In this document: positions 4,310 to 34,844 of the stretch, in pieces
Position numbering within the stretch: the first letter of the stretch is position 1
Layout: each line of letters starts with the position of its first letter
From: Terriglobales bacterium
GTDB lineage: Bacteria; Acidobacteriota; Terriglobia; Terriglobales; Acidobacteriaceae
DNA length: 37,824 bases
Direction: 5' to 3'
Assembly: GCA_015655195.1 (NCBI GenBank)
Contig: JAATFM010000078.1
Span: forward strand, 1-37,824
Notes under the pieces: generated by a model
Told to the model about the DNA's origin: nothing
Database searches by the model: none
The model's input: only the letters and a program-made list of their open reading frames with translations
Position numbers and translations under genes: made by a program

Positions 4310-4444
4310 CTCAACCTGTACACAGAATCCAATCTACCTCGACTCACCGCTTTGGGGAATCGTTTTCTCGTGGTTGGCTTCGGTCTTTGTCAGGTGCTGC
4401 GATTCTCAATCCACCCTGGCGCTCATCACGGGAATGGTGGTCGT

Positions 4445-5572: not shown

Positions 5573-5582
5573 CCCTGTGTCC

Positions 5583-6833
5583 TTATCGCTTGCTCGCGGT
5601 TTCGGCCGCATTGTGGCCGGTCAACTGGCGAATGATATCGATTTCACGCGCGCGGTAAGGCGATCCATCGGGATAGAAAATATCGTGGAACCATACCGTT
5701 GGTTTCACGCCAACATACGGGCGCTGCCAGGAATCCCATGGCAGCCAGGTTTGCGTCTTGCCTTGTACAAAGCCCCAGTTGATGGCGCCCACGTGGTATT
5801 GTCGCGCAATCGGCAGCACCGTATCGAAGAGGCTGCCGGAGCCGCGCGCCATGTACTCGGTGCAGAGAATCGGGCGGTTGTAAGGCTCCAACTCGTGAAT
5901 CAAGTGCTCGAACTCCTCCGGCCACCCGTAGTTGTGGAAGGTGACAATGTCGGATTCTTCAAGCTGAATGCGCGTCATGGGAGAAAGCTGATCATGCGGG
6001 GACCATCCGCCACGCCACACGCCGCTCGTGAGCGGCTGCTCCGGATGTGCGGCGCGCGCCCATGTAAAGACCTGGGGAAGAAGATCGAGAACAAGCGCGA
6101 CCTTGTTCTTGATCTCCGCGCTGCCATAGGAGCTGTCATTCGTGTTGTCCGGCTCGTTCCATAGATCCCATGCCAGGATGCGCGGGTCGTGGGCAAACGC
6201 GCCAACGACGCCTTCGACATACTCCTTCAGCCGCACCCGTTGCGACGGATCGGCAAGTGCCGCAGCGCCCGGACTCTGCACCCAGCGCGAGTTGTGCACA
6301 CCGGGAACAGGAGCGCTCTGCGGGCCCAGTTTGGGGTAAGGGTCCCAGCAGGAATCGAAGAGAACAAAGATGGGCCGAATGTGATGGCGCGCCGAGATGG
6401 CGAGAAATTCGTCGATCCGCCGCGTGAAGCCGGGCGCATCCTGCTGCCACAGCAGGTCGTGCAGAAAGACGCGCATGGTATTCATGCCGGTAGACTCGGC
6501 CCATCCCAATTCGAGATCGATCTCTTTCGGATTGAAGGTCGCGGCCTGCCACATTTCCAACTCGTTGTCCGCATCGGCTGGGATATAGTTGCTGCCGACC
6601 AGCCATGGCTGTTGGCGATACCACTCCCGAGCCTTCTCCTGCGGCCAGCGAGCCGTGCCTGCATCCGCGTCCGAAGCCGATTGGGCGCGGGCCGAAGAGA
6701 GCAGCAGGCATACGAGCGCAACGAGCGTAGCAAAGCGGCTTGCGGCAATGCCAGTGCGTCCCCATGAGAAAGAAGCTATCGAATGGGATAATATTTGGCG
6801 CGAATGAATGTAGCAGCAGAAGGATCTCATCAC
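5583..6833 (-). CDS. Cellulase-family (GH5-like) glycoside hydrolase
   Basis: NTMRVFLHDLLW, DLWNEPDNT (NEP acid/base) and ILCTEYMARG (nucleophile Glu) motifs of clan GH-A; signal-like N-terminus. Confidence 0.78.
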   Translation of the reverse strand: MMRSFCCYIHSRQILSHSIASFSWGRTGIAASRFATLVALVCLLLSSARAQSASDADAGTARWPQEKAREWYRQQPWLVGSNYIPADADNELEMWQAATFNPKEIDLELGWAESTGMNTMRVFLHDLLWQQDAPGFTRRIDEFLAISARHHIRPIFVLFDSCWDPYPKLGPQSAPVPGVHNSRWVQSPGAAALADPSQRVRLKEYVEGVVGAFAHDPRILAWDLWNEPDNTNDSSYGSAEIKNKVALVLDLLPQVFTWARAAHPEQPLTSGVWRGGWSPHDQLSPMTRIQLEESDIVTFHNYGWPEEFEHLIHELEPYNRPILCTEYMARGSGSLFDTVLPIARQYHVGAINWGFVQGKTQTWLPWDSWQRPYVGVKPTVWFHDIFYPDGSPYRAREIDIIRQLTGHNAAETASKR

Positions 6834-18112: not shown

Positions 18113-19663
18113 ATGAAGTCAGGATCGCTCTCACTCCTCCGCATCGCTCCGCTGCTTGCCTGCATCCTCGCCCCATTACATGCGCAGCAGCCCACAGACG
18201 ACTACAACCAGCCCTATCGCCCTCAACTGCATTTTTCTCCGCGGGAACACTGGACCAACGACCCGAATGGCCTCGTCTATTTCCATGGCGAATACCATCT
18301 TTTCTTTCAATACAACCCCTTCGGCGATACCTGGGGACACATGAGCTGGGGCCATGCCGTCAGCCGCGACCTGCTCCATTGGCAGGAGCTGCCCGTGGCG
18401 CTGCCCGAGCGCGACGGCATCATGATTTTCACCGGCAGCGCCGTGGTGGACGAGCAGAACACCAGCGGCTTCTGCGACCCCGGCCAGCCTTGCCTGGTGG
18501 CCATTTACACCGGCGCGGAACAGGCAAGAGCGCGGCAAACACAGAACATTGCATACAGCCGCGACAACGGCCGTACCTGGACGCCGTATGCCGCAAACCC
18601 GGTCCTCGACCTCGGACTTGCCGATTTCCGCGACCCCAGCGTTTCCTGGGACAGCGAGCGTCATCGCTGGCTCATGGCCGTCTCGCTGCCCACCGAGCGC
18701 AAGGTCCGCTTCTACGCATCACCCAACCTGAAAGACTGGACCCAACTCAGCGACTTTGGCCCGGCCGGCAATACAGCCGGAGCCTGGGAGTGTCCTGACC
18801 TGCTGCGCTTTCCCGCCGACAAAGACCACGCGGAGATGTGGGCGCTCAAAGTTGGCATTGGTTCCGGCGCACCGCAGGGCGGAAGCGGCGAGCAGTATTT
18901 TCTCGGTAGCTTTGACGGAGCATCTTTCACGCAATCCGCGCTGCCCGGAGCGCATGGCTGGACCAACTACGGCAAAGACGATTACTGCGCCATCAGTTAC
19001 AACAATCTGCCGGCAGACAGCCCAAATACCCTGATTGGCTGGATGAACAATTTGCAGTACGCGGACAAACTTCCCACCTCGCCGTGGCGCGGCCAGATGA
19101 GCCTTCCCCGCCGCATCACGCTGCTCCATGACAGCTCCGGCCTTGCACTCGCCCAGGAGCCGGTCATCGCGCCTCTGCGAACCAGCGGCAGCCACATCAA
19201 GGGCCGCACAAGTGCCGCGAAAGCTGCCGTAACCCTTGCCCATGAAGAAGGCCCGTTCGAGCTCGACCTGCAATTTCCAAAGACCGCCGGAGATACCTTC
19301 GGCATTCGCATCTACAGCTCCGCGGAACACTGGACGGAAATCGGTTTCGACCGCCAGCGAAGCGAGTTTTATATCGACCGCACCCATTCCGGCAACGTAT
19401 CCTTCGCACCCAGGTTTGCCGCCAGAACTGTGGCGCCATTGGACCCTACCCGCCCGCTGGACCTCCAACTCATCTACGACCGCTCTTCGATTGAAGCCTA
19501 TTCTCAGCAAGGCACCATTGCCATGACCAATCTGCTCTATCCCCCGGCGAGTGAAAGCGGAGACAAGAACGAAGTAGCCAGCCGGATTGAATTCTTTTCA
19601 ACATCCGGCAAGCCCGCTTCACTCAAGGGAAGACTGTGGAAGCTCGCATCTATCTGGCGATGA
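18113..19663 (+). CDS. GH32 levanase/invertase-like enzyme
   Basis: HFSPREHWTNDPNGLVYFHGEYHLFFQYNP (WMNDPNG-type nucleophile), FRDPSV, AWECPDL motifs; signal peptide. Confidence 0.93.
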   Translation: MKSGSLSLLRIAPLLACILAPLHAQQPTDDYNQPYRPQLHFSPREHWTNDPNGLVYFHGEYHLFFQYNPFGDTWGHMSWGHAVSRDLLHWQELPVALPERDGIMIFTGSAVVDEQNTSGFCDPGQPCLVAIYTGAEQARARQTQNIAYSRDNGRTWTPYAANPVLDLGLADFRDPSVSWDSERHRWLMAVSLPTERKVRFYASPNLKDWTQLSDFGPAGNTAGAWECPDLLRFPADKDHAEMWALKVGIGSGAPQGGSGEQYFLGSFDGASFTQSALPGAHGWTNYGKDDYCAISYNNLPADSPNTLIGWMNNLQYADKLPTSPWRGQMSLPRRITLLHDSSGLALAQEPVIAPLRTSGSHIKGRTSAAKAAVTLAHEEGPFELDLQFPKTAGDTFGIRIYSSAEHWTEIGFDRQRSEFYIDRTHSGNVSFAPRFAARTVAPLDPTRPLDLQLIYDRSSIEAYSQQGTIAMTNLLYPPASESGDKNEVASRIEFFSTSGKPASLKGRLWKLASIWR

Positions 19664-19837
19664 AGCCTGGAGCGGTCTTCGCCTCTCGCTTCGAGCGACG
19701 CGGGAGAGTTGTTGAAGTTCGCGAAGATGCCGCGGAGTGATTCCTCATTACTGAAATACATGCCGGAGTGTTACAGAATCTCCCCACGGCTGTTCTCCGG
19801 TTATAAAAATCATGGGGCATTTGTGTCGGATATGGCC

Positions 19838-19853
19838 GTTCGATAGGTGAACA
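19838..19853. promoter_or_regulatory. Candidate IclR-family (PcaR/PobR-type) box, copy 1
   Basis: GTTCGATAGGTGAACA; near-identical to 19970-19985. Confidence 0.55.
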
Positions 19854-19969
19854 TTACTCATTCAAGTCTCGATACATTGCCGTAAATGCAGGATGGGTTG
19901 AACCGGCAAAAACGTGAAGTAAATACATTTATTGCGGGCATTCCCTTTGCCTCATTCCATCTCGAAAAT

Positions 19970-19985
19970 GTTCGATAGATGAACA
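19970..19985. promoter_or_regulatory. Candidate IclR-family (PcaR/PobR-type) box, copy 2
   Basis: GTTCGATAGATGAACA (with preceding T: TGTTC-N7-GAACA dyad), 25 bp upstream of a -35-like element. Confidence 0.6.
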
Positions 19986-20009
19986 CAGTGAATTTCTATG
20001 AAATACCTC

Positions 20010-20039
20010 TTGACGCCTTTTGAAGCAAAAGTCTATACA
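20010..20039 (+). promoter_or_regulatory. Sigma70-like promoter candidate
   Basis: TTGACG (20010-20015), 18-nt spacer, TATACA (20034-20039), 49 nt before ATG 20089. Confidence 0.6.
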
Positions 20040-20088
20040 GCCTTCCAGCAAGTATTCATGTGCGTGAGCTGACTTGCGGAGGTCCGTG

Positions 20089-21687
20089 ATGTGTGAACGC
20101 GTGTGGCGGAAGCCGACCACGTTTTTGATTTTCCTTCTGGTGTTTTGCGTTAACTCTTCCAGAAATGTTGTTCAAGCGCAGCAGGGGCCCGAGTTTATTG
20201 GCAGCGGGGCAGTGCCTCCAGAACCGGATCAAAACCTGGAGACGCAACACAAGTTGGCGGAGATGAAGGTATATCTCGGGGCCGGCCGACCGCGCTATGT
20301 GCTGGAAGATTCGTACCTGCGCTGGCCGCTTTCCCCGGGCACCCGGAAATATGCCGCAATCGATGGTAACCATATCAAGTCTTACGTGAATGAAATCACC
20401 GCGATTGCCGAGCAGAGCAGAACCGATGGCAACCAATACTGGGGGCGTATTGTCGGCACCAGGTACGACCTCGAAACCGACCAATGGCTGATGCAAAAGC
20501 TCAAGGCCGCCGGCGTACAGGATGTGCGCAGGCAGGAGCTCGACGTGCCCCCGCAGTGGTGGGGCAACTCATGGGAAGTTGCAATCGGCTCCGGAAGCGC
20601 CGCGCATATGCTGCAATCCGCTTTTCCATTTGTCAATACGCCTTCAACTGCAAAGCAAGGCTTGGACCTCGAAACCGTATACGTCGGGCTGGGCAGAAAA
20701 GCTGACTTTGCAGGCAGGGATGTCAAAGGGAAGGCCGTCGTAATTTTTAGTGTTCCATCGCCCGGCGTTCGCGACAACTCCGAGCAGTGGTTCGGCGGCG
20801 TAGCGCGCGCGGAAGAGAATCAAGCCGCGGCGGTATTGGTTGTTCTCGGGCTGCCGGGCAACTTCTCGGCACAAACCGCCCAGCCGTCGTCCACGGCCCC
20901 CGCGGTGCCGACATTCCTTCTGGGCAACGATGACGGCATCGCGCTCATGGATGCAATCGACAAATCGCTGCCGGGTCCTGGCCCGAAGATTCACCTCCGG
21001 TTGGACGCGACCCCGAAACTTTCCGGCCAGAAGACCGGACTCGTGTGGGGAGTGCTTCCCGGAGCCACAGACGAAACCATTTATCTGATGGCGCCCTTGG
21101 ATTCGTTCTTTACGGGAGCAATGGACAACGCATCGGGCATTGCCACCATGGTGACGCTCGCGGAGTACTACTCCGGAATTCCTCAGGCGCAGCGGCGGCG
21201 AACTATCGTCTTTGTCGGAACCCCCGGTCATCACGACGGAGATCCCGGCACCGCATGGATGCACGAGCATCAGGACACCGTCTTCGGAAAGACCGCGGTG
21301 ATAATCAACTGCGCGCACGTTACACAGACGCAAACGTACTTGCACGGGCCTTTTCTTCGATACTCCAACGCCATCGAGACACACCGCTGGGTATTGCATG
21401 GCAGTCGAAAGCTTGAGGAAATTGCGATCAATGCCTTTGCCGATTTCGGCCTGACTACATTTGCCGTTCCGGATGCGAACGGAGGAGGAGCGCTTGGCAG
21501 GATTTATAAAGATGCGCCCTCGATGTTCACGTACGATATGGGGCCCTTTTATCACACCACAGGAGATATACCGGAATACGTCCCCGCGGCCGGCTTGGAA
21601 CAAGGAGCCCGCGCCTACGCCGAAATCATTGATCGAGTGAACGACGTAGATAGGACGGAACTCTTGGAGACGCCCAGCCAAAAATAG
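20089..21687 (+). CDS. Secreted M28-like protein with PA-type domain and non-canonical active site
   Basis: Signal peptide; PA-like region VKGKAVVIFSVPSPGVRDN; PLDSFFTGAMDNASGIATMVTLAEYY and RTIVFVGTPGHHDG correspond to M28 motifs HxD...DNASG and FVxxxGEE with changed residues. Confidence 0.75.
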   Translation: MCERVWRKPTTFLIFLLVFCVNSSRNVVQAQQGPEFIGSGAVPPEPDQNLETQHKLAEMKVYLGAGRPRYVLEDSYLRWPLSPGTRKYAAIDGNHIKSYVNEITAIAEQSRTDGNQYWGRIVGTRYDLETDQWLMQKLKAAGVQDVRRQELDVPPQWWGNSWEVAIGSGSAAHMLQSAFPFVNTPSTAKQGLDLETVYVGLGRKADFAGRDVKGKAVVIFSVPSPGVRDNSEQWFGGVARAEENQAAAVLVVLGLPGNFSAQTAQPSSTAPAVPTFLLGNDDGIALMDAIDKSLPGPGPKIHLRLDATPKLSGQKTGLVWGVLPGATDETIYLMAPLDSFFTGAMDNASGIATMVTLAEYYSGIPQAQRRRTIVFVGTPGHHDGDPGTAWMHEHQDTVFGKTAVIINCAHVTQTQTYLHGPFLRYSNAIETHRWVLHGSRKLEEIAINAFADFGLTTFAVPDANGGGALGRIYKDAPSMFTYDMGPFYHTTGDIPEYVPAAGLEQGARAYAEIIDRVNDVDRTELLETPSQK

Positions 21688-21715
21688 TCAGCAGATCTTC
21701 TCCGCCGTTGAGCTA

Positions 21716-21737
21716 GCCAGAGGATTATTCCTCTGGC
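21716..21737 (+). promoter_or_regulatory. Perfect intercistronic hairpin before TonB receptor 2
   Basis: GCCAGAGGA-TTAT-TCCTCTGGC, 9-bp perfect stem, 4-nt loop; no T tract. Confidence 0.55.
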
Positions 21738-21849
21738 GCAGAGGAAACCTGTTGCCTGGAAAGCACGCGATGACCGTCCAATGGCTTCCCCGGTCCGGAC
21801 GCACGCATATAACAGCAACGCAATTGGAAGAAGTTTCTTCGTTCAGGAG

Positions 21850-21865
21850 GTTCGATGTTCGAACA
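21850..21865. promoter_or_regulatory. Related IclR-box-like sequence spanning the TonB receptor 2 start codon
   Basis: GTTCGATGTTCGAACA: 12/16 identical to the 19970 copy; contains perfect palindrome TGTTCGAACA at 21856-21865. Confidence 0.35.
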
Positions 21866-24833
21866 AGGCTCAATTTCAAATGCAACATGGCCGGCTGAGT
21901 GTTTCAGGGCCATGTGGCCGCCGGCACATCTTCGTTTCTCCACCTTCCTCTGGCTTTGTGTCCTGAGCCTGTCGGCCACATTTGGCGCCCGGCAGTTGTC
22001 TGCACAAACATTGCAGGTCGGCGACATCCACGGCCAGCTTACGGACCCCTCCAGCGCCGCCCTGCTCGGAGCCACGGTGACACTAACCAGTCCCGCTCTG
22101 CTGGTTCCAAGAACAGCCGTAACAGACTCCTATGGAAACTATCGTTTCGAGCAGCTTCCACTCGGCACGTACAAAGTGGAATTCTCAGGAGCAGGGTTCC
22201 AGCCCACGGCAAGGGAAAATATCGTCATTACCGCGGGCTTTTCGGCAGAAGTCAACGTGCAGATGGGAGTCCAGAATGTGCAGCAGAACATAGTTGTATC
22301 TGCCACGCAGGGACCGGTGATTGATACAACCAACGCAACGGCCACCACATCGCTGGAGGCAGACGTGCTTAGCAATGAGCTGCCTGTGACACGCACCATG
22401 CAGGAGGTGGTAGCAACGACGCCAGGCGTCATGCCGGGAGGCGTGCCCGATCTCGGCGGCGGCAGCATCTCTGGTGGATCGTGGATGGCATATAGTCTGC
22501 GTGGCTCCAACACCTCGCTTCTCGAAGGGATCAATTCGAGGCAAAGCACAACTGCTCCAGGCGATAACTATGATGTCGAATCGTTGCAGGAGTTCCAGGT
22601 AATTGCGGTCGGCGGCGGCGCGGAAGTTGGTGGGCCGGGAGTCTACATCAACGCGATTTACCCGGAAGGCGGCAACAAATTTCACGGCAGGTATGAAGCT
22701 CGCTGGCAAACAGATGCTCTTGAGGGGAACAACTTAACGGATGCGATTAAAGCTCAGGGACTGAGCAATGGCACAGATTCCACAATCATCAAAAGCTTTG
22801 ACACCTCCGGCGATATCGGCGGCCCCATTCTCAAGAACAGACTCTGGTTCTTCGGAGAAGGGCATTATCAGACAATCAGCAGGACCGCGCTCGGCTATGT
22901 GCTGCCCGATGGCTCATCTGGCGTTATCTATGCGCGGGAAACAAATCAATCGATCAAGGCGACCTATCAGCTAACGCCGAACTACAAGCTCATCGGATTT
23001 TGGGACATGTTGACCGAGTACTATCCAAATCGCGGAGGAAGCGCTTTGCTGCCCGAGCTCAGCACTTTGAATGAAACAAATAGCCCGAAGAATTGGAAAG
23101 GTGAGATACAAGGTTTACCTAACTCGCGCATGACTGTGGATTTCATCGCGGGCCGCCACAGCTATTACCTCGTATACAGCGGGCAACCCAATCCCAGCGG
23201 GGTTCCTACTACCTATGATTTGTCAAGCCAGTTGAATGGCGGGCCGAATCTTGGGCAGGATCATCGATTCAGATCGAATTGGCAATTAGTTGGATCGCTG
23301 AGTTATATCCCGGAAGGATCGTTCTTCGGCCATCACGAATTGAAATTTGGCACAACGGCAATGCTGATGACACAAGGCACTGCGGATCCCGACGGCCTTG
23401 CCGGAAATTATGCCCTGATATTCAACAACGGCGCGCCGGCGGAGATTGAGGTGTACAACTTCCCGGTATCGGATACCTCTACCGGTCTGAACGAGATTGG
23501 CATATACCTGACGGATTCCTGGAAGGTAAATAAGCGGCTCACGATGAATATAGGATTCCGGGAAGACATCTTCCAGACGTTTGTTCCCGGCCAGACAAAG
23601 CTCGCCGGCACATTCGGACCTCCCTGGACGGCAACGTCTCCATTCACAGGAGTAAAAGCTACTTATCCATATATCGCAACCGGAACCTGGACTGTTCCGG
23701 CACCAAGAATTGGTGTGACCTGGAACATGTTTGGCGATGGAAAGACAGTTCTCAAGGGAAGCTACGGACGCTATAACTGGTCGCCGGGAGACGACTATGC
23801 TGTTGCCTATAATCAGAACGCAGCAACCAATACAACGTACAAGTGGAGCGGCCCTTGTCCGCCGGCTCCGCAGGTCTGTGACTTTGCACCGGGTACAGTG
23901 GATTTCGATCCGAATGGTCCGGATTATGTAAGCACAGCGGGAGGCAGTTCCGGCCCCGGAAATGCCACGGCGCTTCCGAATACGGCATTGAACTCAAATC
24001 TGAAAGAGCAATACACCAACGAGTATCAAGTGCTTGTCGAGCGCCAGTTGGGGAAGAGCATCTCGATTCGAGGCGGGTATACCTTTGCGCAGGAGCTGCA
24101 TGTGTGGGCAGCGGAGCCATATCTCGTCCCCTACAGCGCATGGGATATCCCCGTACAAGTTATTGACCCCGGCCCCAAAGGAGTGCCCGGCGTTACCCTG
24201 ACCGGCACGCCACTGACGATCTATGATCTCGAACCGGCATACAAAGGTGCAGCATTCTCGCAGCAGAAGTACTTCAACAGCCCGAATACCAGCCACTATC
24301 AAACGATCGAGATCACCGGTATAGAACACCAGACCTCCGGCAAATGGAATCTTCTGGCAAGTTATACAGCAACCAAAAATCACCAATGGATTGTCCCTAT
24401 CATCGTGAACCCGAACCAGAACTATTTCCCAACCGACGATGCCTGGACCTGGCAAGCTCGCCTGACCGGAAACTACAATCTTCCGCGGCGATTTGATGTC
24501 TCCGGGACCTATCAGTTTTACAACGGACTGCAGGGGCAGCGCACGGATACATTTCTCTCGAAGAATGTTCCGATTCCCACGGCTGGGAAGGTCGTGATTC
24601 CGGTCGAGCCTTTCGGAGCGCAGACGGGCGCTGTCCGGTCTCTTCTCAATATACGGGGGGCCAAGGACTTCTTTTCGGACAAACACAAATTGCGTGTTTA
24701 CATGGAGCTCCTCAACGCCACCAACAATGCTTCTTCCTGGGCCACTAACTTTAATTCCGGTCCATCCTTCGGTGTCATATCCCAGATTGATAACCCGCGA
24801 ATTGCTCGTTTTGGTGGAATCTTCATTTTCTAG
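21855..24833 (+). CDS. TonB-dependent receptor 2, Oar-like with carboxypeptidase-regulatory domain
   Basis: RBS AGGAGG before ATG 21855; signal; GDIHGQLTDPSSAALLGATVTLTSPALLVPRTAVTDSYGNYRFEQLPLGTYKVEF; beta-barrel-rich C-terminus ending IARFGGIFIF. Confidence 0.9.
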   Translation: MFEQGSISNATWPAECFRAMWPPAHLRFSTFLWLCVLSLSATFGARQLSAQTLQVGDIHGQLTDPSSAALLGATVTLTSPALLVPRTAVTDSYGNYRFEQLPLGTYKVEFSGAGFQPTARENIVITAGFSAEVNVQMGVQNVQQNIVVSATQGPVIDTTNATATTSLEADVLSNELPVTRTMQEVVATTPGVMPGGVPDLGGGSISGGSWMAYSLRGSNTSLLEGINSRQSTTAPGDNYDVESLQEFQVIAVGGGAEVGGPGVYINAIYPEGGNKFHGRYEARWQTDALEGNNLTDAIKAQGLSNGTDSTIIKSFDTSGDIGGPILKNRLWFFGEGHYQTISRTALGYVLPDGSSGVIYARETNQSIKATYQLTPNYKLIGFWDMLTEYYPNRGGSALLPELSTLNETNSPKNWKGEIQGLPNSRMTVDFIAGRHSYYLVYSGQPNPSGVPTTYDLSSQLNGGPNLGQDHRFRSNWQLVGSLSYIPEGSFFGHHELKFGTTAMLMTQGTADPDGLAGNYALIFNNGAPAEIEVYNFPVSDTSTGLNEIGIYLTDSWKVNKRLTMNIGFREDIFQTFVPGQTKLAGTFGPPWTATSPFTGVKATYPYIATGTWTVPAPRIGVTWNMFGDGKTVLKGSYGRYNWSPGDDYAVAYNQNAATNTTYKWSGPCPPAPQVCDFAPGTVDFDPNGPDYVSTAGGSSGPGNATALPNTALNSNLKEQYTNEYQVLVERQLGKSISIRGGYTFAQELHVWAAEPYLVPYSAWDIPVQVIDPGPKGVPGVTLTGTPLTIYDLEPAYKGAAFSQQKYFNSPNTSHYQTIEITGIEHQTSGKWNLLASYTATKNHQWIVPIIVNPNQNYFPTDDAWTWQARLTGNYNLPRRFDVSGTYQFYNGLQGQRTDTFLSKNVPIPTAGKVVIPVEPFGAQTGAVRSLLNIRGAKDFFSDKHKLRVYMELLNATNNASSWATNFNSGPSFGVISQIDNPRIARFGGIFIF

Positions 24834-24916
24834 CCGGCACTTATGGCAGCGAAAGAGTCCGTAAACAATAGCCGCGCGTCGAGCGGCCGGATGTGGATTG
24901 TATGAAAGGAGTCATC

Positions 24917-25636
24917 ATGCTGGAAAGTAAGACCGCGGTCATTGTCAGTGCGCATTCTGCGGACTTTGTGTGGAGAGCTGGCGGCGCTATCGCGCTTTAC
25001 GCAAAACGCGGCTGGGAAGTGCACGTTATTTGCCTCTCATTCGGCGAGCGCGGCGAATCGGCGAAGCTTTGGCGTGAGACCGGCATGACGCTGGAAGTCG
25101 TGAAGGCTCATCGGAGACGGGAAGCAGAGGAAGCTGCCAATATCCTCGGAGCCAGAGTTCGGTTTTTCGACATCGGCGACTATCCCATGCGCGTCGACGA
25201 CGATGTGCTCTATAAGTTAGTCAATGTTTACCGGGAGCTGCGTCCTGAATTCATCCTTACTCATTCGCTTAAGGACCCGTATAACTTCGATCATCCTTTG
25301 GCCTGCCATGTGGCGCAGGAGGCGCGCATTATTGCGCAGGCGCATGGACACGATCCAGCTTCTAAGGTTCTCGGAGCGCCCGGCGTATTTCTGTTCGAAC
25401 CTCACCAACCGGAACAATGCGAATGGAAACCGCAGATTCTGCTTGATATTACTTCCGTGTGGGAACAAAAGGCAGCGGCCTTCAGGGTGATGTCGGCCCA
25501 GGAGCATCTTTGGGAATACTATGAGCGCGCCGCTCTGCAGAGGGGAGCGCAAGGCGCCAGAAATTCCAATCGCAAGATGAAGTACGGCGAGGCTTACCAG
25601 CGTGTCTTTCCGCAGGTCGCCGAGGTGCTTGAATGA
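24917..25636 (+). CDS. galB: GalB-like 4-oxalomesaconate hydratase (PIG-L/LmbE superfamily)
   Basis: VIVSAHSADFVWRAGGAIALYAKRG...VICLSFGERGESAKLW...FDIGDYPMR...THSLKDPYNFDHPLA...FEPHQPEQCEWKP; matches remembered GalB motifs; RBS AAAGGAG 5 nt before ATG 24917. Confidence 0.85.
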   Translation: MLESKTAVIVSAHSADFVWRAGGAIALYAKRGWEVHVICLSFGERGESAKLWRETGMTLEVVKAHRRREAEEAANILGARVRFFDIGDYPMRVDDDVLYKLVNVYRELRPEFILTHSLKDPYNFDHPLACHVAQEARIIAQAHGHDPASKVLGAPGVFLFEPHQPEQCEWKPQILLDITSVWEQKAAAFRVMSAQEHLWEYYERAALQRGAQGARNSNRKMKYGEAYQRVFPQVAEVLE

Positions 25637-26307
25637 ACAGACCTGTTGTCGTGAAGACAATTGAGCGAATCGGCAGGGAAGCCGTGGAGCAGCTTGAGCA
25701 TTTTGGCGTTTCCACCATTCATGAAGCGCAAGGAAGATGTGGCCTGCTTGCAAACTACATGCGTCCCATTTATTCCGGACCGCCTGTCGCCGGATACGCA
25801 ATAACCGTCTCGCTGCCGGCTGCAGATAACCTCATGCTCCATGTGGCGGTTGAAGTGTGCCAACCGGGCGACATGCTAGTCGTTGCGCCAACGTCCTACT
25901 GCAGTGACGGATATTTCGGTGAACTTCTCGCAACCTCGCTTCGCGCTCGTGGAGTAAAAGCTCTGGTGATTGAGTCTGGGGTACGCGATATACATCTATT
26001 GACTGAGATGAAATTCCCCGTCTGGAGCCGCGCTGTTTGTTCGCAGGGAACTGCAAAGGCTACGCTCGGCTCCGTCAATGTTCCGATTGTCTGCGCCGAT
26101 GCGCTCGTGACTCCAGGGGACATTGTTGTCGCGGATGACGATGGTGTGGTGGTCGTAAAACGGGAATTGGTAGATGAAGTCATTAAGATGTCTGCTCGTA
26201 GAAGTGAGAGAGAGTCCTACGTGCGACAGCGTCTTGCGCAAGGGGAATCCGGTCTCGATATTTACGGGTGGCGCGACAGGCTCGGGGATTTGGAATACCG
26301 CGACTAA
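25633..26307 (+). CDS. ligK: RraA-like 4-carboxy-4-hydroxy-2-oxoadipate (CHA/HMG) aldolase
   Basis: ATGA overlap with galB; VSTIHEAQGRCGLLANYMRPIY, GDMLVVAPTSYCSDGYFGELLATSLRARGVKALVIESGVRD, VTPGDIVVADDDGVVVV motifs of class II RraA-fold aldolases. Confidence 0.85.
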   Translation: MNRPVVVKTIERIGREAVEQLEHFGVSTIHEAQGRCGLLANYMRPIYSGPPVAGYAITVSLPAADNLMLHVAVEVCQPGDMLVVAPTSYCSDGYFGELLATSLRARGVKALVIESGVRDIHLLTEMKFPVWSRAVCSQGTAKATLGSVNVPIVCADALVTPGDIVVADDDGVVVVKRELVDEVIKMSARRSERESYVRQRLAQGESGLDIYGWRDRLGDLEYRD

Positions 26308-26354
26308 GCACTTATGTAACAGTTACGATACTGGAAAGCTATGGAGACTTACGA

Positions 26355-27683
26355 ATGGACACGGTAAATATGAGAAGCCCCGCCAGTGCACGCCTCAACA
26401 GACTGCCGCTCGTCTCCTTCCATCGCCGCATGATGTGGATACTTGGCTTTGTCTTCTTCTTCGATCTTGTCGACATCAACACATTTTCATACGCAGCTCC
26501 CGCCATCATGAAGCTATGGCACATCTCTGTTTCGACGATTGCCTTGCTTAGCTCAGCCACCTTTGGAGGCATGTTTGTTGGATCGACGATAGGAGGCTGG
26601 CTATCAGATCGCATTGGTCGCAAGAAGGCTCTATTGCTTACGATTCTCTGCTATGCGGGCTTTTCCATGTTGAACGCTCTGGTATGGGAGCCTGTCGGCT
26701 TGTTTATCACACGCCTTCTGACCGGCGTTGGCATATCCGCAATGACAGTGGTTGGCATTGCGTACATCAGTGAGATATATCCGGCGCGGGCGCGGGGAGC
26801 TTACCAGGGATGGATCATGGTGATTGGTCTCTTTGGTGTACCGGCTACCGCATATGTGGCTCGCGCTGTTGTCCCATTGGGCACCTGGGGTTGGCGTCTC
26901 GTTTTTGTATGGGGATCTCTCGGCATCCTGTTTCCACTCTTTTACAACCTTCTGGAAGAATCTCCTCGCTGGTATGAGGACCACGGTCGCTACGATGAGG
27001 CGGATGCTGTTCTCGACAGGATTGAGGCAATCGCCCGCAAAGAGGCGGGGGAACTTTCGATTATCCCTCCATTGACGATGCAGCCCAAAACCCCGTCCCA
27101 ATATAGTGATTTGTTCAATCGCACATATCTTCCCAGGTCCATTCTGCTCGTATTTGCCTGGATGTGTCTTACTCTTGGCTTCTTCGGGTTCACATCGTGG
27201 GTGCCGACGCTTCTTGTTGCCCACGGCTTTTCGCTTGTACATTCGCTGGCGTGGTCATCGACCATGTCCCTCTCCGCGATTCCAGGCGCGCTTCTTGCAG
27301 CGTTGCTGTCCGACAGGATAGACAGGAAGTGGTCGACAACCGTGGTCGCTCTCATCATCGCACTGTGTGGCGCTATTTACGGGCTGACCTTCCACATCGG
27401 ATTAATCATCGTCTTTGGACTTCTGGTCGAAATGTTCATCCACACATTTATGCCCTTGATGTATGCCTATACAGCGGAATCTTTTCCCTCGTCGATTCGT
27501 AACTCCGGCACAGGCCTCGCCTATGGAGCCGGGCGGTTGGTAAATATCCTGGGCCCTTTTCTGATTGCATTCATCTTCAAGAACTTCGGCTACACGTATG
27601 TCTTCGCGTACATTGCGGCAACTTGGATTTTGGCCGCAATCGGCATCGGGCTCTTTGGCCTGCGAAGTAATTCTTTTGCTTGA
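26355..27683 (+). CDS. MFS transporter, aromatic acid:H+ symporter (AAHS)-like
   Basis: Many TM segments; GGWLSDRIGRKKALLLTI loop 2-3 motif; ISEIYPARARGAYQGW; SDRIDRKWSTTVVAL. Start at ATG 26355. Confidence 0.83.
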   Translation: MDTVNMRSPASARLNRLPLVSFHRRMMWILGFVFFFDLVDINTFSYAAPAIMKLWHISVSTIALLSSATFGGMFVGSTIGGWLSDRIGRKKALLLTILCYAGFSMLNALVWEPVGLFITRLLTGVGISAMTVVGIAYISEIYPARARGAYQGWIMVIGLFGVPATAYVARAVVPLGTWGWRLVFVWGSLGILFPLFYNLLEESPRWYEDHGRYDEADAVLDRIEAIARKEAGELSIIPPLTMQPKTPSQYSDLFNRTYLPRSILLVFAWMCLTLGFFGFTSWVPTLLVAHGFSLVHSLAWSSTMSLSAIPGALLAALLSDRIDRKWSTTVVALIIALCGAIYGLTFHIGLIIVFGLLVEMFIHTFMPLMYAYTAESFPSSIRNSGTGLAYGAGRLVNILGPFLIAFIFKNFGYTYVFAYIAATWILAAIGIGLFGLRSNSFA

Positions 27684-27757
27684 TGACGACAGGATCGGCA
27701 CAAGTTAGATCCGATTCGTAAGAAGATAACTCTGAATTATCCAGGTAAGGAGGCAAG

Positions 27758-28687
27758 ATGGGCGACATACAGGCGGAACAATCTCGCGCTTTCATTTCCG
27801 ACGAAGCATGGAAGGCATTGGAAGGTGCCTATGATATGCACGTGCATGTCGCTCCTGATGTAATCGAGAGAAGGATCGACGACATCGATTTGGCAAAGGA
27901 ATTTCTTGCTCACGGCTTGCGCGGCTTCGTGCTGAAGTCGCATTATCTTCCAACCACCGAGCGTGCCAAGGTAGTTTCGAAAGCTGTGCCGCCGGTGAGA
28001 GCGTTCGGTGCAATCGCTCTCAACCACAGCCTTGGCGGGCTCAACCCTGTTGCCGTTGAGATTGCCGGACGCGGAGGTTGCAAGATTGTATGGATGCCGA
28101 CAGTAGATGCTGCCAATGAAACGGCGGGCAAACCAAACGCAGCGAACGTCAAGCTTCCATTTTGGGCAAAGATTCAACGGGAACTGGCAGCTACGGGCAT
28201 CGCGCCGCCTCCTATTTCGATCCTCGAAGAGAACGGGGAACTATCGCAACCGGCTCTTCAGTGTATTGAGCTCATTGCCAAATACGGGATGGTTCTCGCA
28301 ACCGGACATTTGGGACGGGCGGAGATTGTTCTTCTCGTCAAAAGTGCTCGGGAAATGGGCGTTCGTAGCATCATTGTTACCCATGCCGAGTTTCCGTCCC
28401 AGAATTTTTCGGCTTCGGAGCAGCGGGAACTAGCACAGATGGGCGCTCTTATTGAACACTGCTTTACAACGATGTACACTGGCAAGGCTCCGTGGGAAGG
28501 ACTCTTTGCGAGCATTCGGGAAACTGGCGTCGAACGCTGTCTGCTTTCAACTGATCTTGGGCAATCAGTAAACCCGGGCGTATCTGAAGGCTTTGCGATG
28601 TTTGCTCAACGGCTTCTCGATGCAGGCTTTACGGTTGATGAAGTTCATCGAATGACTGCGACGAATTCTGGCGATTTGGCAGGTTAG
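27758..28687 (+). CDS. DUF6282-type amidohydrolase-superfamily-like protein
   Basis: RBS AAGGAGG; YDMHVHVAPDV (HxH), LKSHYLPT, ATGHLGRAE, VTHAEFPSQ, LSTDLGQ: spacing of metal-ligand His/Asp as in amidohydrolases. Confidence 0.65.
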   Translation: MGDIQAEQSRAFISDEAWKALEGAYDMHVHVAPDVIERRIDDIDLAKEFLAHGLRGFVLKSHYLPTTERAKVVSKAVPPVRAFGAIALNHSLGGLNPVAVEIAGRGGCKIVWMPTVDAANETAGKPNAANVKLPFWAKIQRELAATGIAPPPISILEENGELSQPALQCIELIAKYGMVLATGHLGRAEIVLLVKSAREMGVRSIIVTHAEFPSQNFSASEQRELAQMGALIEHCFTTMYTGKAPWEGLFASIRETGVERCLLSTDLGQSVNPGVSEGFAMFAQRLLDAGFTVDEVHRMTATNSGDLAG

Positions 28688-29484
28688 TGCGAAATCGCAA
28701 CGGGCTGGGACAGAATTATATGAAGCCTCCGCGTAACTTGCCGAGCGATCGATACGTTCAATCACTTGCGCGTGGTCTTGCAGTTATTCGTACATTTGGC
28801 GATGGGCGGCCGAGGCAGACTCTTTCTCAGGTTGCGGCAAGAACCGGTCTGGATCGCGCAGGTGCGCGCCGCATCCTTCTCACTCTTAAGACGCTCGGAT
28901 ATCTCCGCCAGGACGGGCGCGATTTTATCCCGACCCCTAACATCCTCCATCTCGGGTACAGCTATATTTCCACCATCCAATGGTGGAGCATGGCTGAGCA
29001 GAAGATGACAGAGTTGGTGAACACGGTAAATAAGTCCGCGACACTGGGAGTTCTGACCGGTTCGCATTTCATCTCGGTCGCATGTGTGCAGGCACGAAGT
29101 CTTCTGACTGTGAATCTTGCCGTGGGGCGCCGTTCGCCGGCCTATTGCACTGCGATAGGCCGGGTTCTGCTAGGAAATCTGCCGGAGGCAGAGCTTCTGC
29201 ATGTGCTGAAGCGGCGACCGCCCACAAAGCTCACCGATTATACGGTTACATCGATACCGGCCCTCGTCCGCATCATTGAACGGGACCGTAAGCAGGGATG
29301 GTCGCTGGTGAGCAAAGAATACAACGATTCTGTCTGTGCCATAGCAGTGCCTGTCTACAGTCAAACTGGCCAGATGATGGCGGCAATGAGCGCCATCGAG
29401 ACACCTATCCGCACAAGCCCGGAAAAAATGGTGGAGACGATTCTGCCGGTGCTGAAGCAGGCATCCGCGACGCTTTGGAAATGA
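28687..29484 (+). CDS. IclR-family regulator of the PcaR/PcaU/PobR type
   Basis: YVQSLARGLAVIRTFGDGRPRQTLSQVAARTGLDRAGARRILLTLKTLGYLRQDG HTH; effector domain ...AVPVYSQTGQMMAAMSAIETPIR. GTG start overlaps DUF6282 stop (TAGTG) or ATG 28720. Confidence 0.87.
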   Translation: MRNRNGLGQNYMKPPRNLPSDRYVQSLARGLAVIRTFGDGRPRQTLSQVAARTGLDRAGARRILLTLKTLGYLRQDGRDFIPTPNILHLGYSYISTIQWWSMAEQKMTELVNTVNKSATLGVLTGSHFISVACVQARSLLTVNLAVGRRSPAYCTAIGRVLLGNLPEAELLHVLKRRPPTKLTDYTVTSIPALVRIIERDRKQGWSLVSKEYNDSVCAIAVPVYSQTGQMMAAMSAIETPIRTSPEKMVETILPVLKQASATLWK

Positions 29485-29602: not shown

Positions 29603-29707
29603 TCCAGCCGATCCCATACAAATGATTCGCGCCGCCGTACTCGCGGCAAGTGGCGAGAATGAATTGAGCGCCATGTCGCAAATGCCGTATCCTGAAAATT
29701 GAACGTT

Positions 29708-31147
29708 ATGGCAAGATTCCCCTTAGTCATGATGCTTGTCGTACTTGCTTCCGGCGCCGCCGCGTGTTGCTCGCAATCCGCGCCGCCTGCGCCGGACAAG
29801 GTGTGGCATGCGCCGGCGGAGCAGGGACTGGCGCGTGATCTGGCCGCGCATCCCGAGCCGAAGTATGCAATCGACGAGAGCCGCCACTACACGCTCGCCG
29901 AGTTGATTGACCTTGCTGAGCAGCACAACCCCGAAACGCGCGAGGCATGGCAGGCGGCCCGCGCCCGTGCCGACTCGCTTGGCATTGCGCGCAGCGCGCT
30001 CTTCCCTATGCTTACGGCCGTTGCCCTCGGTGCATCGCTACGCCAGGCGGCGCTGCTCGGCCAGCACTTTGACCGGCAGACGGTGGGCCTCTTTGAGCCG
30101 CAACTGCACGTGGACTGGCTGGTGCTCGACGGCGGCCAGCGTGCCGGTACAATCGACATCGCCAAGGCCAACCTGCTTGCCGCCAACCTCGCTTTCAACG
30201 ATACCCATCGCAAGGTAATCTACGCCGTTGCCTCGTCGTATTACCACCTGCTGAATGCACGCGGCCAGCTTGAGGCCGCCGAGTCGAGCCTTGCCAATGC
30301 ACAGGCCGTCGAGGATCAGATTCACAGCCGGCTCGACAACGGTCTGGCAACAAAGCCTGACTTGCTCGAAGCAACAGCCGCGCGGGCGCAGGCCGAGTAC
30401 GATCTTGCCTCCGCAACCGGCGTGGAAGAAATCGCCCACGGCGAGCTGGCAACGACGATGGGCTTGCCTCCCGAGACAAAGTTCGCCGTCGAAGGAATCG
30501 ACAAGCTCACCACGCCGGCCGCGATGGCGGACTCCGTGGACGAGGAGATTCACCGCGCCTTCGCGCAGCGGCCGGAACTGCTGGAACAAGTGACGCGTCT
30601 GCGCGCCGCTTCGGCGTCCATCAAGCAGGCGCGCTCGGCATATATTCCTTCGCTGAGCCTGAGCGGCGATGGCGGCATGGCGCGCGCCTATGGTGAGCTG
30701 GACCAGCTTCCGCGCACCTACGCCCAAGCCGAGGTGTGGAACGCGGGCCTCGAACTGCGCTGGACGCTCTTTGACGGCCTGCGCCGCGAGCGTGAGATGG
30801 CCCGCGCACAGGCGGAGAAGAAGGCTGCTGAAGCCGGCATTGACACGCTGCGCGACCAGGTTGCCAACGAAGTGTGGGCCGCGTACACGAACACGCAGAC
30901 GGCGCTCCACCAGCAGCAGGCAGCAGCCGCGCTGTTGGCTTCCTCCGGCGAAGCCTACGATGCGGCGCGCGAGTCCTACGGCTACGGCGTGCGGAACGCA
31001 ATCGACGTGATCTCCGCGCAGAAAGCGCTCGCGCAGGCTCGCTCTGAGGACGTGTTCGCGCGCACGCAACTGCTGCTGCAATCGGCCACACTGGCCTTTC
31101 GCACCGGCGACCTGATCCAAGTGCAGCCCGGCAAAGGAACTCCATGA
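29708..31147 (+). CDS. TolC/NodT-family outer membrane efflux lipoprotein (MdtP-like)
   Basis: Lipobox-like SGAAACCSQ; YTLAELIDLAEQHNPETREAWQAARARADSLGIARSALFP; repeated coiled-coil halves. Confidence 0.88.
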   Translation: MARFPLVMMLVVLASGAAACCSQSAPPAPDKVWHAPAEQGLARDLAAHPEPKYAIDESRHYTLAELIDLAEQHNPETREAWQAARARADSLGIARSALFPMLTAVALGASLRQAALLGQHFDRQTVGLFEPQLHVDWLVLDGGQRAGTIDIAKANLLAANLAFNDTHRKVIYAVASSYYHLLNARGQLEAAESSLANAQAVEDQIHSRLDNGLATKPDLLEATAARAQAEYDLASATGVEEIAHGELATTMGLPPETKFAVEGIDKLTTPAAMADSVDEEIHRAFAQRPELLEQVTRLRAASASIKQARSAYIPSLSLSGDGGMARAYGELDQLPRTYAQAEVWNAGLELRWTLFDGLRREREMARAQAEKKAAEAGIDTLRDQVANEVWAAYTNTQTALHQQQAAAALLASSGEAYDAARESYGYGVRNAIDVISAQKALAQARSEDVFARTQLLLQSATLAFRTGDLIQVQPGKGTP

Positions 31148-31404
31148 AGAGGACACTGAAAACACTGGCGCTGTTGCTCGTCTGGCCGCTTGCAGGCTGC
31201 TCCCATGCGCCTACATTCAACATTCTGGGATCGTTTTTCCCCTCGTGGCTCATCTGCCTCGTAATCGGCATTTGCCTTGCGTGGCTGGCGAGCTGGCTGC
31301 TGACGCGCTTCAAGCTGGAAAAGCTCATTGCCTGGCCGGTGCTGACCTATCCCAGCATGGCCGCATTCTTTTCCTTTCTTCTTTGGTTGATATTTTTCAG
31401 TTAG
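31144..31404 (+). CDS. ytcA: YtcA-like small membrane lipoprotein
   Basis: 86 aa, lipobox LAGCSHAP, two TM segments, ATGA overlap with TolC gene; between TolC and HlyD genes as in E. coli mdtNOP-ytcA type loci. Confidence 0.75.
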   Translation: MKRTLKTLALLLVWPLAGCSHAPTFNILGSFFPSWLICLVIGICLAWLASWLLTRFKLEKLIAWPVLTYPSMAAFFSFLLWLIFFS

Positions 31405-31416
31405 CGAGAACGAACG

Positions 31417-32661
31417 ATGGCGACGAACGAAACACTGCGCGAGCGAAAGATCGCGGGCTATACGGTCAGCGCAGGCATTCTGCTGGCCACCGCGATCACG
31501 GGGCTACTCGTGTTGCGGCAGGTGACGGAGAACCCGCGCACCGACGACGCTGAGGTATTTGCCAACTACATCGGCATCGCGCCGGTGGTTAGCGGGCCCA
31601 TCACGCATCTCTACGTGGCCGACAACCAGCAGGTGAAGGCCGGCGATCCATTGCTTGAGATCGACCCGCGCCCCTACGCCTACGCGCTCGAACACGCCAA
31701 ATCCGACAAGACCACGCTCGAAGGCCAGATCGGCGACGAGCGGCGCATTCTCGCCGCCAAGTCCAGCGCCGTCGATGTGGCAAAGTCCTCCGCGGACAGC
31801 GCGGAGGCTGCCCTGCATCACGCACAGGCGGCCATCGAGCAGGCAAAAGCCGAGGTAACAAACGCGAAAGCAAATGTGGAGCGCGCCGCCGCCGAGCAGA
31901 GCTACGCGGAAAATAATCTCGCGCGTCTGGAGCCGCTGCTCAAAAAGCAATTCGTCACCGTGGATCAGGTGGACCAGGCTCGCACCGCTGCCGTAACGCG
32001 AACGCAGGCCGCTCAGCAGGCGCACGCGCAGCTTGCGCTCGCCGAAGCCAGCCTCGACGCGGCCAACGCGCAGTATCGCCAGGCGCAGGCCGATGTGTCC
32101 GGAAGCAATCACGGCGTGCAGCAGGCGGCGCACAGTGTTACCACGCTCGCCCCCTATACCGGCCAACTCGGCGGCCGTCAGGCCGCCATCGATACTGCGC
32201 AATACAACTACGACAACACGCGCGTCACAGCGCCCTTCGATGCCCGCGTGACGAACCTCACGCTCTCGCAGGGAGCCTATGCCACTGCCGGCCAGCAGAT
32301 ATTCACTCTCATCGACACACGCACATGGTGGGCAATTGCCAACTTCCGCGAAACGCAACTCGCGCACATCCGCCCCGGTATGGAAGCCGATGTCTACACC
32401 CTCTCGCGGCCTTCGATCCGCTATCGCGGCGTGGTCGACAGCGTAGGCTTTGGCGTCACGCCGGACGCCGAGCTGGTGGGCAAGCTCACCGGCCCCGGCC
32501 TGCCCGACGTGCAGCGCACGCTGAACTGGGTGCATCTTGCCTCGCGTTTCCCGGTGCGCGTCCGCATTGAGAATCCGCCCTCCGACACCCTTCGTCTCGG
32601 CGAGTCGGCTATCGTCGTCATCCGCGGCGAAACCTCGCAGGTTTCGTCTCCGTCGCACTGA
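31417..32661 (+). CDS. HlyD/EmrA-family periplasmic adaptor (MdtN-like)
   Basis: TM anchor, RTDDAEVFANYIGIAPVVSGPITHLYVADNQQVKAGDPLLEIDPRPY, YNYDNTRVTAPFDARVTNL lipoyl/adaptor motifs. Confidence 0.9.
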   Translation: MATNETLRERKIAGYTVSAGILLATAITGLLVLRQVTENPRTDDAEVFANYIGIAPVVSGPITHLYVADNQQVKAGDPLLEIDPRPYAYALEHAKSDKTTLEGQIGDERRILAAKSSAVDVAKSSADSAEAALHHAQAAIEQAKAEVTNAKANVERAAAEQSYAENNLARLEPLLKKQFVTVDQVDQARTAAVTRTQAAQQAHAQLALAEASLDAANAQYRQAQADVSGSNHGVQQAAHSVTTLAPYTGQLGGRQAAIDTAQYNYDNTRVTAPFDARVTNLTLSQGAYATAGQQIFTLIDTRTWWAIANFRETQLAHIRPGMEADVYTLSRPSIRYRGVVDSVGFGVTPDAELVGKLTGPGLPDVQRTLNWVHLASRFPVRVRIENPPSDTLRLGESAIVVIRGETSQVSSPSH

Positions 32662-32669
32662 GCGCAAGC

Positions 32670-34844
32670 ATGGCAACCGCGCCCCAATCCGCTCCTCAAT
32701 CCGCGCCAACCATTCCGCATGCCAGCCGCTTCACCGCATGGCTGCCAAAATTTCTGCGCGATGAGCTGGCGCCGTATCCCGGCCGTGCCGCTATTGTGAC
32801 GCGCATGGTAATTGCCTGCGTCCTGACGGTCATTTTCATTGCCGTCTTCCGCATTCCCGGCGGCGCGATTGCCGTGGTGCTGGCAATGATTCTCTCCCGC
32901 GAAGACATTCTTGCCTCCGCGCGTTCGGCCTTTGGGCGCATTGGCGTCTTTGCCATCGCCGGCATCTTTGTGCCGATTGGCGGAAGGCTCTTTGCCGGCT
33001 TACCGCTCACGCATTTTCTGTGGGAAGCGGCAAGCATCTTCCTCTGCTTCTTTTTGCTACGCACGCTGGTGAATTTTGCGGTTGCATCGAGCTTCAGCCT
33101 TGTCGTCACCAACATTCTTGCCATCTGGTATCTGCCGGGCCCGGCCTCGCGCAATGTGGAGTTGACGCTGTGGCAGGTTCTGGCGGCAAGCGTGGGCTCG
33201 CTCGTTGCTCTCGCCGTGGAAGCGGTCTTTCACGCCATCAGCCGGCGCGATGAAGTTCTCACCGGTGTCTCGGTTCGTCTCCAGCTCGTCGAGCAATTGA
33301 TGTGGGCCTACGCCGCGGGCGACCCGCTTCCACCCACGGTAGTACGCGAACTCTCGCGCTATGCCGTCGTCGGCGTCGGCGTGTTGCGCCGCCATATTGC
33401 ACGCACGGCCAGCGAGCCCATCCACCGCATGAGAATGAGCACACTCGTCTCGCTCACCGGCCGCGTCATCGACTTTGCCGCCGCGCTTCCGGGCACCGCG
33501 TCGTCGCTCGCGCCCGCTGACCGCGAACGCGCTGGCGAATTGGCGCGGCATCTTGCCGAGATCAGTTCCTGTCTTCCATTTCCCAACCGGCCGCAGTCGC
33601 CGCAAGCAGCGGAGTGGGAGCCGGGCTCTGGCTCCGGATCCACGCCGCTGCTCAATGAACTGGAAGCTATGGCCGCGCTTATCCCTTCGGTGCTTGCTAG
33701 CGATACCTCGCTCGACCCACGGCTTGAAATTCTTGACGCGTCAAGCGAGTCCTCGCGGCTCTTCCTGCGCGACGCCTTCCGCAATCCCGAGCACCTGCGC
33801 TATGCGCTCAGCGGCACGCTGGCCGCGATGGTCTGCTACATCCTCTACATGGGCCTCAGTTGGCCGGCGCTCGGCACCTCCGTCACCACCTGCGTTCTCA
33901 CCGGTCTCTCCAACATCGGCGCCTCGCGACAGAAGCAGGTTCTCCGCATCGCCGGCGCGGTGCTGGGCGGCTTCGTCTTCGGCATGGGCGCGCAGATATT
34001 CGTCCTGCCCGCCATTGACACCATCGGCGGCTTCGCGCTGCTTTGTGCTGCGGTCTCATTCGTTGCTTCATGGATTTCTACTTCCAGCTCGCGGCTCTCC
34101 TATGCCGGCTTGCAACTTGCACTGGCCTTTTACCTCATCGTGCTCAGCGAGCCGACGATCCAACTCTCGCTCACCGTGGCGCGCGACCGCGTGCTCGGAG
34201 TGCTGCTGGGAATCTTCATGATGTGGCTGGTCTTCGAGCGGCTTTACACGCGGCCCGCAGTCAGCGAGATGGTCAGCTTCTTCGTCCGCAACACGCGGCT
34301 CATCGCGGACCTTGTCGAGACCACGATCATCGATGCAGATGCCGCCGCCATCGTTCTCATACGCCGGCAGCGCGAGCAGATTTACAGCAACTTCGGTGAG
34401 GTCAACGCGCAGATGGACGCCGTGCCATTTGAAACCGGCGCGCTGCGTGTCGCGCACATGGCTGGCCGCGACCGCATTCGCCGCTGGCAGGCCGCGGAGC
34501 GCACCTTTTATCTGCTCCAGGCGCCGCTGTTGCAGTTCCGCATCTTCGCGGATTCCAGCCTGCGCTCGCACGCCTTCTATAACATCGAAGGCAGCTTCCG
34601 CATTGCCTGCGGCCAGGCCTTCCGGCAGATTGCCGCCAGCCTCGATGCGCAGCTGAAAGGCACATCCGCCCCCGCACCCATCGAGTGCTCCCTCACGTCT
34701 CTCCTCGACTCGCTCGAAGCGGGCCACGCAAGCGAATTCACCGAACGCGAGCGCGCCCTGATGAAAATGACGCGAACCATCGGCGGCATTGTAGACCGCA
34801 TGGCCCACGAAGTAGCCGCCGAGCCGCTCTTCGCCGTCGAGTAA
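32670..34844 (+). CDS. FUSC-family inner membrane efflux protein (MdtO/AaeB-like)
   Basis: Two sets of TM segments separated by soluble domain; 8 nt after HlyD gene. Confidence 0.85.
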   Translation: MATAPQSAPQSAPTIPHASRFTAWLPKFLRDELAPYPGRAAIVTRMVIACVLTVIFIAVFRIPGGAIAVVLAMILSREDILASARSAFGRIGVFAIAGIFVPIGGRLFAGLPLTHFLWEAASIFLCFFLLRTLVNFAVASSFSLVVTNILAIWYLPGPASRNVELTLWQVLAASVGSLVALAVEAVFHAISRRDEVLTGVSVRLQLVEQLMWAYAAGDPLPPTVVRELSRYAVVGVGVLRRHIARTASEPIHRMRMSTLVSLTGRVIDFAAALPGTASSLAPADRERAGELARHLAEISSCLPFPNRPQSPQAAEWEPGSGSGSTPLLNELEAMAALIPSVLASDTSLDPRLEILDASSESSRLFLRDAFRNPEHLRYALSGTLAAMVCYILYMGLSWPALGTSVTTCVLTGLSNIGASRQKQVLRIAGAVLGGFVFGMGAQIFVLPAIDTIGGFALLCAAVSFVASWISTSSSRLSYAGLQLALAFYLIVLSEPTIQLSLTVARDRVLGVLLGIFMMWLVFERLYTRPAVSEMVSFFVRNTRLIADLVETTIIDADAAAIVLIRRQREQIYSNFGEVNAQMDAVPFETGALRVAHMAGRDRIRRWQAAERTFYLLQAPLLQFRIFADSSLRSHAFYNIEGSFRIACGQAFRQIAASLDAQLKGTSAPAPIECSLTSLLDSLEAGHASEFTERERALMKMTRTIGGIVDRMAHEVAAEPLFAVE

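Follow-up and report, generated by a model that had tools for sequence, protein, structure and literature searches.

The window, by which we mean the whole 37,824-nucleotide stretch analysed here, carries a co-directional gene set that opens with an M28-family peptidase and closes with an IclR-family regulator (Table 1). The GalB and LigK/GalC assignments within this set are firm by sequence comparison, yet no LigB-family (PF02900) ring-cleavage dioxygenase was found above threshold in the genome to which the window belongs (a 4.76-Mb assembly, 96% complete), a result that bears on entry into the 4-oxalomesaconate branch. The DUF6282 protein is ~70% identical across three families of the phylum (window 27758-28687; L138 10282-11208; L196 9094-10020), genes for its relatives adjoin galB-ligK-ligB in one genome (G513) and lie ~3 kb from ligK in another (G355), and its motifs HxH, GH, THAE and TDLG are amidohydrolase-like, the first His of HxH being not conserved; we regard it as a candidate lactonase or tautomerase of the 4-oxalomesaconate pathway. 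Genes nearby look plant-polysaccharide related, with weak rhamnosidase-like and arabinosidase-like matches at 2636-5611 and a GH32 enzyme at 18113-19663, and TolC/OEP, HlyD and MdtO-like efflux genes follow at 29699-34844, after a 215-bp gap. A search of the window against Rfam found no RNA family.

Table 1. Genes and predicted control elements of the locus (feature, positions in the window, strand, remarks)
Distal operator, box 1 (predicted)	19837..19853	+	CGTTCGATAGGTGAACA; core GTTCG-N5-TGAAC at 19838-19852
Proximal operator, box 2 (predicted)	19969..19985	+	TGTTCGATAGATGAACA; perfect TGTTC-N7-GAACA palindrome
Candidate promoter TTGACG-N18-TATACA	20010..20039	+	weak; not recovered by promoter scan
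M28-family peptidase, first gene of unit	20089..21687	+	Pfam PF04389; signal-peptide-like N terminus; GGAGG upstream of ATG
Box 3, candidate operator missed by the initial annotation	21850..21864	+	GTTCGATGTTCGAAC, perfect GTTCG-N5-CGAAC; overlaps RBS/ATG (21855) of TonB/Oar-like gene
TonB/Oar-like outer-membrane beta-barrel protein	21855..24833	+	PF25183, PF13620
GalB-type 4-oxalomesaconate hydratase (PIG-L fold)	24893..25636	+	5cgz, E 3.9e-105
LigK/GalC 4-carboxy-4-hydroxy-2-oxoadipate aldolase	25633..26307	+	PRK09262, TIGR02798 above cut-off; 3noj
MFS transporter, aromatic-acid/H+ symporter-like	26268..27683	+	TIGR00895, 207.8 bits, below family cut-off
DUF6282 protein, amidohydrolase-like motifs	27758..28687	+	~70% identity to its counterparts in two distant relatives, whose genes lie near ligK
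IclR-family regulator, PcaR-like	28687..29484	+	recognition helix D56-RAGARRILLTL; diverged ligand pocket

The set is headed by a 425-bp intergenic region, confirmed here between the end of the GH32 gene (19663) and the ATG of the M28 gene (20089), in which the initial annotation had described two IclR-type boxes, GTTCGATAGGTGAACA at 19838-19853 and GTTCGATAGATGAACA at 19970-19985. Both the coordinates and the 15/16 identity proved correct; what had been missed is that each box is a GTTCG-N5-TGAAC palindrome (read GTTCG-ATAGR-TGAAC), and that box 2, taken with one further base on each side, is a TGTTC-N7-GAACA palindrome occurring a single time in the genome. The operator of P. putida PcaR that had been quoted for comparison, GTTCGATAATCGCAC, is borne out by the literature (PMC12455658), and the boxes fit it. 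Group-1 IclR operators, those of PcaR, PcaU, PobR and others, follow GTNCG-N5-6-CGNAC (Suvorova and Gelfand, PMC8222616), from which boxes 1 and 2, with a spacer of 5, differ by one mismatch, TG replacing CG in the right-hand half-site. The boxes stand 132 bp apart, equal to 12.6 turns, on opposite faces of the helix. A search for tandem partners 19-20 bp from each box found none; ahead of box 2 we observed TCGAA-N4-TTCGA, one base off the published spacing of the extra direct half-site repeat of PcaU-type operators, and box 1 has nothing comparable.

Pattern searches of the assembly revealed how rare these sites are. Boxes 1 and 2 are alone in matching GTTCGATAGRTGAACA with at most one mismatch, the next best site having two, and in the window the pattern occurs three times with up to 3 mismatches (0.32 expected); genome-wide, that 3-mismatch level yields 22 matches, and the control pattern, read in reverse, yields 19, a chance-like background. 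Box 3 matches GTNCG-N5-CGNAC exactly and, with zero mismatches, is the one such site in the 37.8-kb window. The palindrome GTTCG-N5-YGAAC has 13 distinct sites in the genome, three of which (boxes 1-3) fall within 2,027 bp here, where, were the other ten distributed evenly, ~0.004 would be expected by arithmetic. Each of those ten overlaps an open frame of 169 codons or more, an overlap that points to coding sequence but does not prove it. As regards location, boxes 1 and 2 lie in the gap before the M28 gene and box 3 at the start of the TonB gene; this start is uncertain, since initiation at Met20 (21912) would yield a signal peptide of more usual form and would place box 3 in the leader. The iclR gene is the last of the co-directional set headed by the boxes, and directly before iclR itself no site was found.

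The protein encoded at 28687-29484 contains both the HTH_IclR and IclR_C domains and matches P. putida PcaR (8eju) at E 1.3e-40. Its residues R57, R61 and R62 occupy the positions equivalent to the DNA-contact arginines R56, R60 and R61 of PobR, and it has Arg at HTH position 33, a residue avoided there by even-length IclR motifs (PMC8222616), in line with the odd length of the boxes. It scores 257.5 bits against the PcaR/PcaU/PobR model TIGR02431, below the cut-off of 284.75, its ligand pocket departs from that of the family (see below), and it is linked to galB, ligK, MFS and DUF6282 genes, not to beta-ketoadipate (pca/pob) genes; for these reasons we term it PcaR-like and do not file it as PcaR. 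A genome search found no second PcaR-type gene, and the one other IclR homologue found is distant (26% identical).

Sites of the same class accompany PcaR-type genes more widely. We compared the 330 bp upstream of each of 49 PcaR-type genes, sampled at family level (presumably the Acidobacteriaceae), with 49 coding controls, and found GTNCG-N5-CGNAC with at most one mismatch upstream of 42 genes as against 10 controls, and exact matches numbering 19 and 1, respectively; of the spacer lengths from 2 to 9, a length of 5 was conspicuous. This sample also contained 13 tandem pairs at 19-20 bp. At several loci (L048, L052, L144, L146, L151, L159 and others of the family), tandem palindromes 20 bp apart, GTGCGTTTATCGTA and in several cases GTCCGNCTATCGAAC, were seen ~150-195 bp before the PcaR-type regulator.

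We also examined homologues sharing the recognition helix. The closest one found (tblastn, plasmid records) is 46% identical and encoded on a Comamonadaceae plasmid, divergently from pcaIJF; it has the identical helix RAGARRILLTL, and TGTTCGTATGTCGAACA lies between the divergent genes. In Burkholderia, two homologues sharing this helix carry TGTTC-N7-GAACA sites (TGTTCTATATACGAACA and TGTTCTACATACGAACA), a form present upstream of the regulator gene in 3/7 same-helix homologues, and a Roseicitreum homologue carries GTGCGTATAGCGAAC. A matching site was thus found in four of the seven, and the three from Cupriavidus have no good site. These observations support the pairing of the IclR protein with the boxes, though not uniformly.

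None of the other genomes searched carries this IclR together with galB/ligK, and so the exact boxes have no phylogenetic footprint among them. In the galB/ligK clusters of G536, G182, G513, G652 and G647 no orthologue of the window IclR is adjacent, a distant IclR homologue lying ~9 kb from the cluster in G182, and the regulators identified next to these clusters are of the TetR or GntR type. A scan of genome contigs with the single IclR sequence gave matches of 38% identity at most. Exact 15-mer matches were also followed up in three family genomes (G166, G172, G241) and set aside, none being tied to an IclR gene; the neighbour was identified in G166 only, where the site adjoins an outer-membrane beta-barrel gene (PF25183).

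The promoter proposed in the initial annotation held up in part. The TTGACG-N18-TATACA motif is present and the spacing arithmetic is right, placing the centre of box 2 at about -69; a scan of 19600-20100, however, finds no promoter, because TATACA is without the conserved final T, and a scan of the 425-bp gap for sigma-70 promoters and terminators likewise returned nothing. In the gaps of the 20089-29484 unit no terminator-like site was found on the + strand, and a single transcript for the whole is plausible. The gap after M28 measures 168 bp and contains a stable hairpin at 21715-21738, GCCAGAGG-ATTATT-CCTCTGGC, just past the M28 stop (9 base pairs when folded, and lacking a T run), possibly a processing or attenuation element. 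The earlier claim that the IclR protein controls the entire unit stands as far as the boxes are well supported by sequence as its operators; the extent of a single unit is less certain, given the 168-bp gap with its hairpin and box 3 at the next gene.

Taken together, these observations lead us to propose that the boxes are operators of the PcaR-like IclR regulator encoded at 28687-29484 and that box 2 most probably lets this protein activate the unit's promoter, a combined explanation that does not insist on the effector and to which we assign a probability of about 0.72. The reading of the boxes as PcaR-type IclR operators for the local protein is well supported, because of the motif class, the helix arginines, the sites of the same-helix homologues, the near-absence of such sites elsewhere in the genome and the lack of a second PcaR-type gene; that the local IclR binds them is, on these grounds, quite probable. 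According to this model, a regulator dimer would bind each palindrome with one recognition helix (R57, R61, R62) at each GTTCG half-site. The presumed trigger is an intermediate of the 4-oxalomesaconate branch; in its presence the regulator would act from box 2, ~69 bp before the probable start of transcription, to switch on the promoter serving M28-TonB-galB-ligK-MFS-DUF6282-iclR. Box 1, which lies another 132 bp upstream, might add occupancy, and box 3 may provide a second point of control, at the start of TonB.

The same regulator and boxes could also operate mainly by repression, with an unliganded dimer on box 3, and on boxes 1 and 2 by cooperation, blocking initiation of TonB transcription or translation until the effector releases it. 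The overlap of box 3 with the RBS and start codon of the TonB gene points in this direction, as do the weakness of the promoter proposed ahead of M28, the peak of published IclR sites between -3 and +1 nt relative to gene starts (PMC8222616) and the behaviour of P. putida PcaR, which activates or represses depending on box position (PMC12455658). Boxes 1 and 2, however, precede the proposed promoter elements, so that a dimer bound to them would leave RNA polymerase unobstructed, and a location at about -69 suits activation from box 2. We consider a mainly repressing regulator rather unlikely, and lean slightly towards activation as its principal mode.

Arms of the GTTC/GAAC type occur in the operators of several transcription factor families, LexA boxes for example being TGTTC-N4-GAACA, and one could thus assign the boxes to an unrelated factor (LexA- or GntR-type, for instance) instead of the local IclR, an assignment with which the three siteless Cupriavidus homologues would agree. 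A global regulator would nonetheless be expected to have non-coding sites elsewhere, and the ten other genomic sites all overlap open frames; the arms here are N7 apart and not N4 as in LexA boxes, and the same palindrome stands beside some regulators with the same helix, all of which makes an unrelated factor improbable. That the boxes are a chance repeat or a remnant of local duplication without function, as might be argued from there being only two near-identical copies and one related site, we find scarcely credible, since 0/1000 first-order Markov versions of the 425-bp gap contained a repeated 16-mer with one mismatch or none, 3/13 genomic motif sites fall in 2 kb, and the similarity of the two copies ends at the box edges, with unrelated flanks, so that they are not part of a duplicated longer segment.

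The ligand pocket of the PcaR-like protein bears on what it may sense. In 8eju succinate is reported to contact Y151, T177, S240, N257 and S259 (PMC12455658), and aligning ~70 homologues to the 8eju sequence we found S, T, A, S and I at these positions of the window protein, which is not the pocket of TIGR02431. At position 151 each of the ~70 homologues has Tyr or Phe, whereas the window protein has Ser; position 259, Ser or Gly wherever aligned, is Ile; positions 257 and 240, mostly Asn and Ser among the homologues, are Ser and Ala. Thr177 is kept, and R239 of 8eju is replaced by Cys. The closest homologue (L191) retains all five pocket residues, and within the sample of ~70 this combination of changes is seen in the window protein alone, suggesting that it responds to an effector other than that of PcaR. 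More tentatively, and in our estimate with less than even odds, the protein might be a regulator of the PcaR lineage that has kept its DNA code and rebuilt its pocket, sensing an acid of the 4-oxalomesaconate branch and not one of the beta-ketoadipate type, and governing the transporter/peptidase and galB/ligK unit through three dispersed operators.

The operator class is already known and the operator prediction by itself is ordinary; what is unusual is that a PcaR-like regulator is associated here with galB/ligK and has an altered pocket. Literature searches found no tested PcaR-type operator for acidobacteria. If the proposal is true, the locus would represent a compact re-tasking of a regulator in acidobacteria, with the same helix and operator class serving a different pocket and pathway, and its regulator would be a candidate biosensor of acids of the 4-oxalomesaconate type, for which Pseudomonas relies on an unrelated LysR protein.

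Compared with the PcaR/PcaU operators of P. putida, A. baylyi and C. glutamicum, the locus shares the GTTCG-N5-CGNAC palindrome and a PcaR-like regulator with an RxxxRR recognition helix, but differs in the TGAAC right half of boxes 1 and 2, in the 132 bp between them (as against the usual tandem spacing of 19-20 bp), in the third box at an internal gene start, in its galB/ligK-type linkage in place of beta-ketoadipate genes and in its diverged pocket. In PcaR loci of the same genus and family (e.g. G144, L166) a PcaR-type gene is oriented divergently from genes for a CoA-transferase and a thiolase, and GTGCGATAATCGCAC occupies the intervening gap in the same-genus G144; with their GTGCG half-sites and Y-T-(S/A)-N-(S/G) pocket, however, these appear to be ordinary regulators of the beta-ketoadipate kind. 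DesX and VanR1, named in PMC12314914, are likewise of the IclR type and regulate genes for the catabolism of vanillate and syringate; compared by the genes controlled, theirs are for O-demethylation. The control of galBCD by GalR in Pseudomonas resembles the present case in its targets, the 4-oxalomesaconate hydratase and CHA aldolase genes, and in Pseudomonas sp. NGC7 4-oxalomesaconate induces the galB operon through this protein (PMC12314914); GalR, however, is of the LysR type and uses different sites, whereas the regulator here is of the IclR type.
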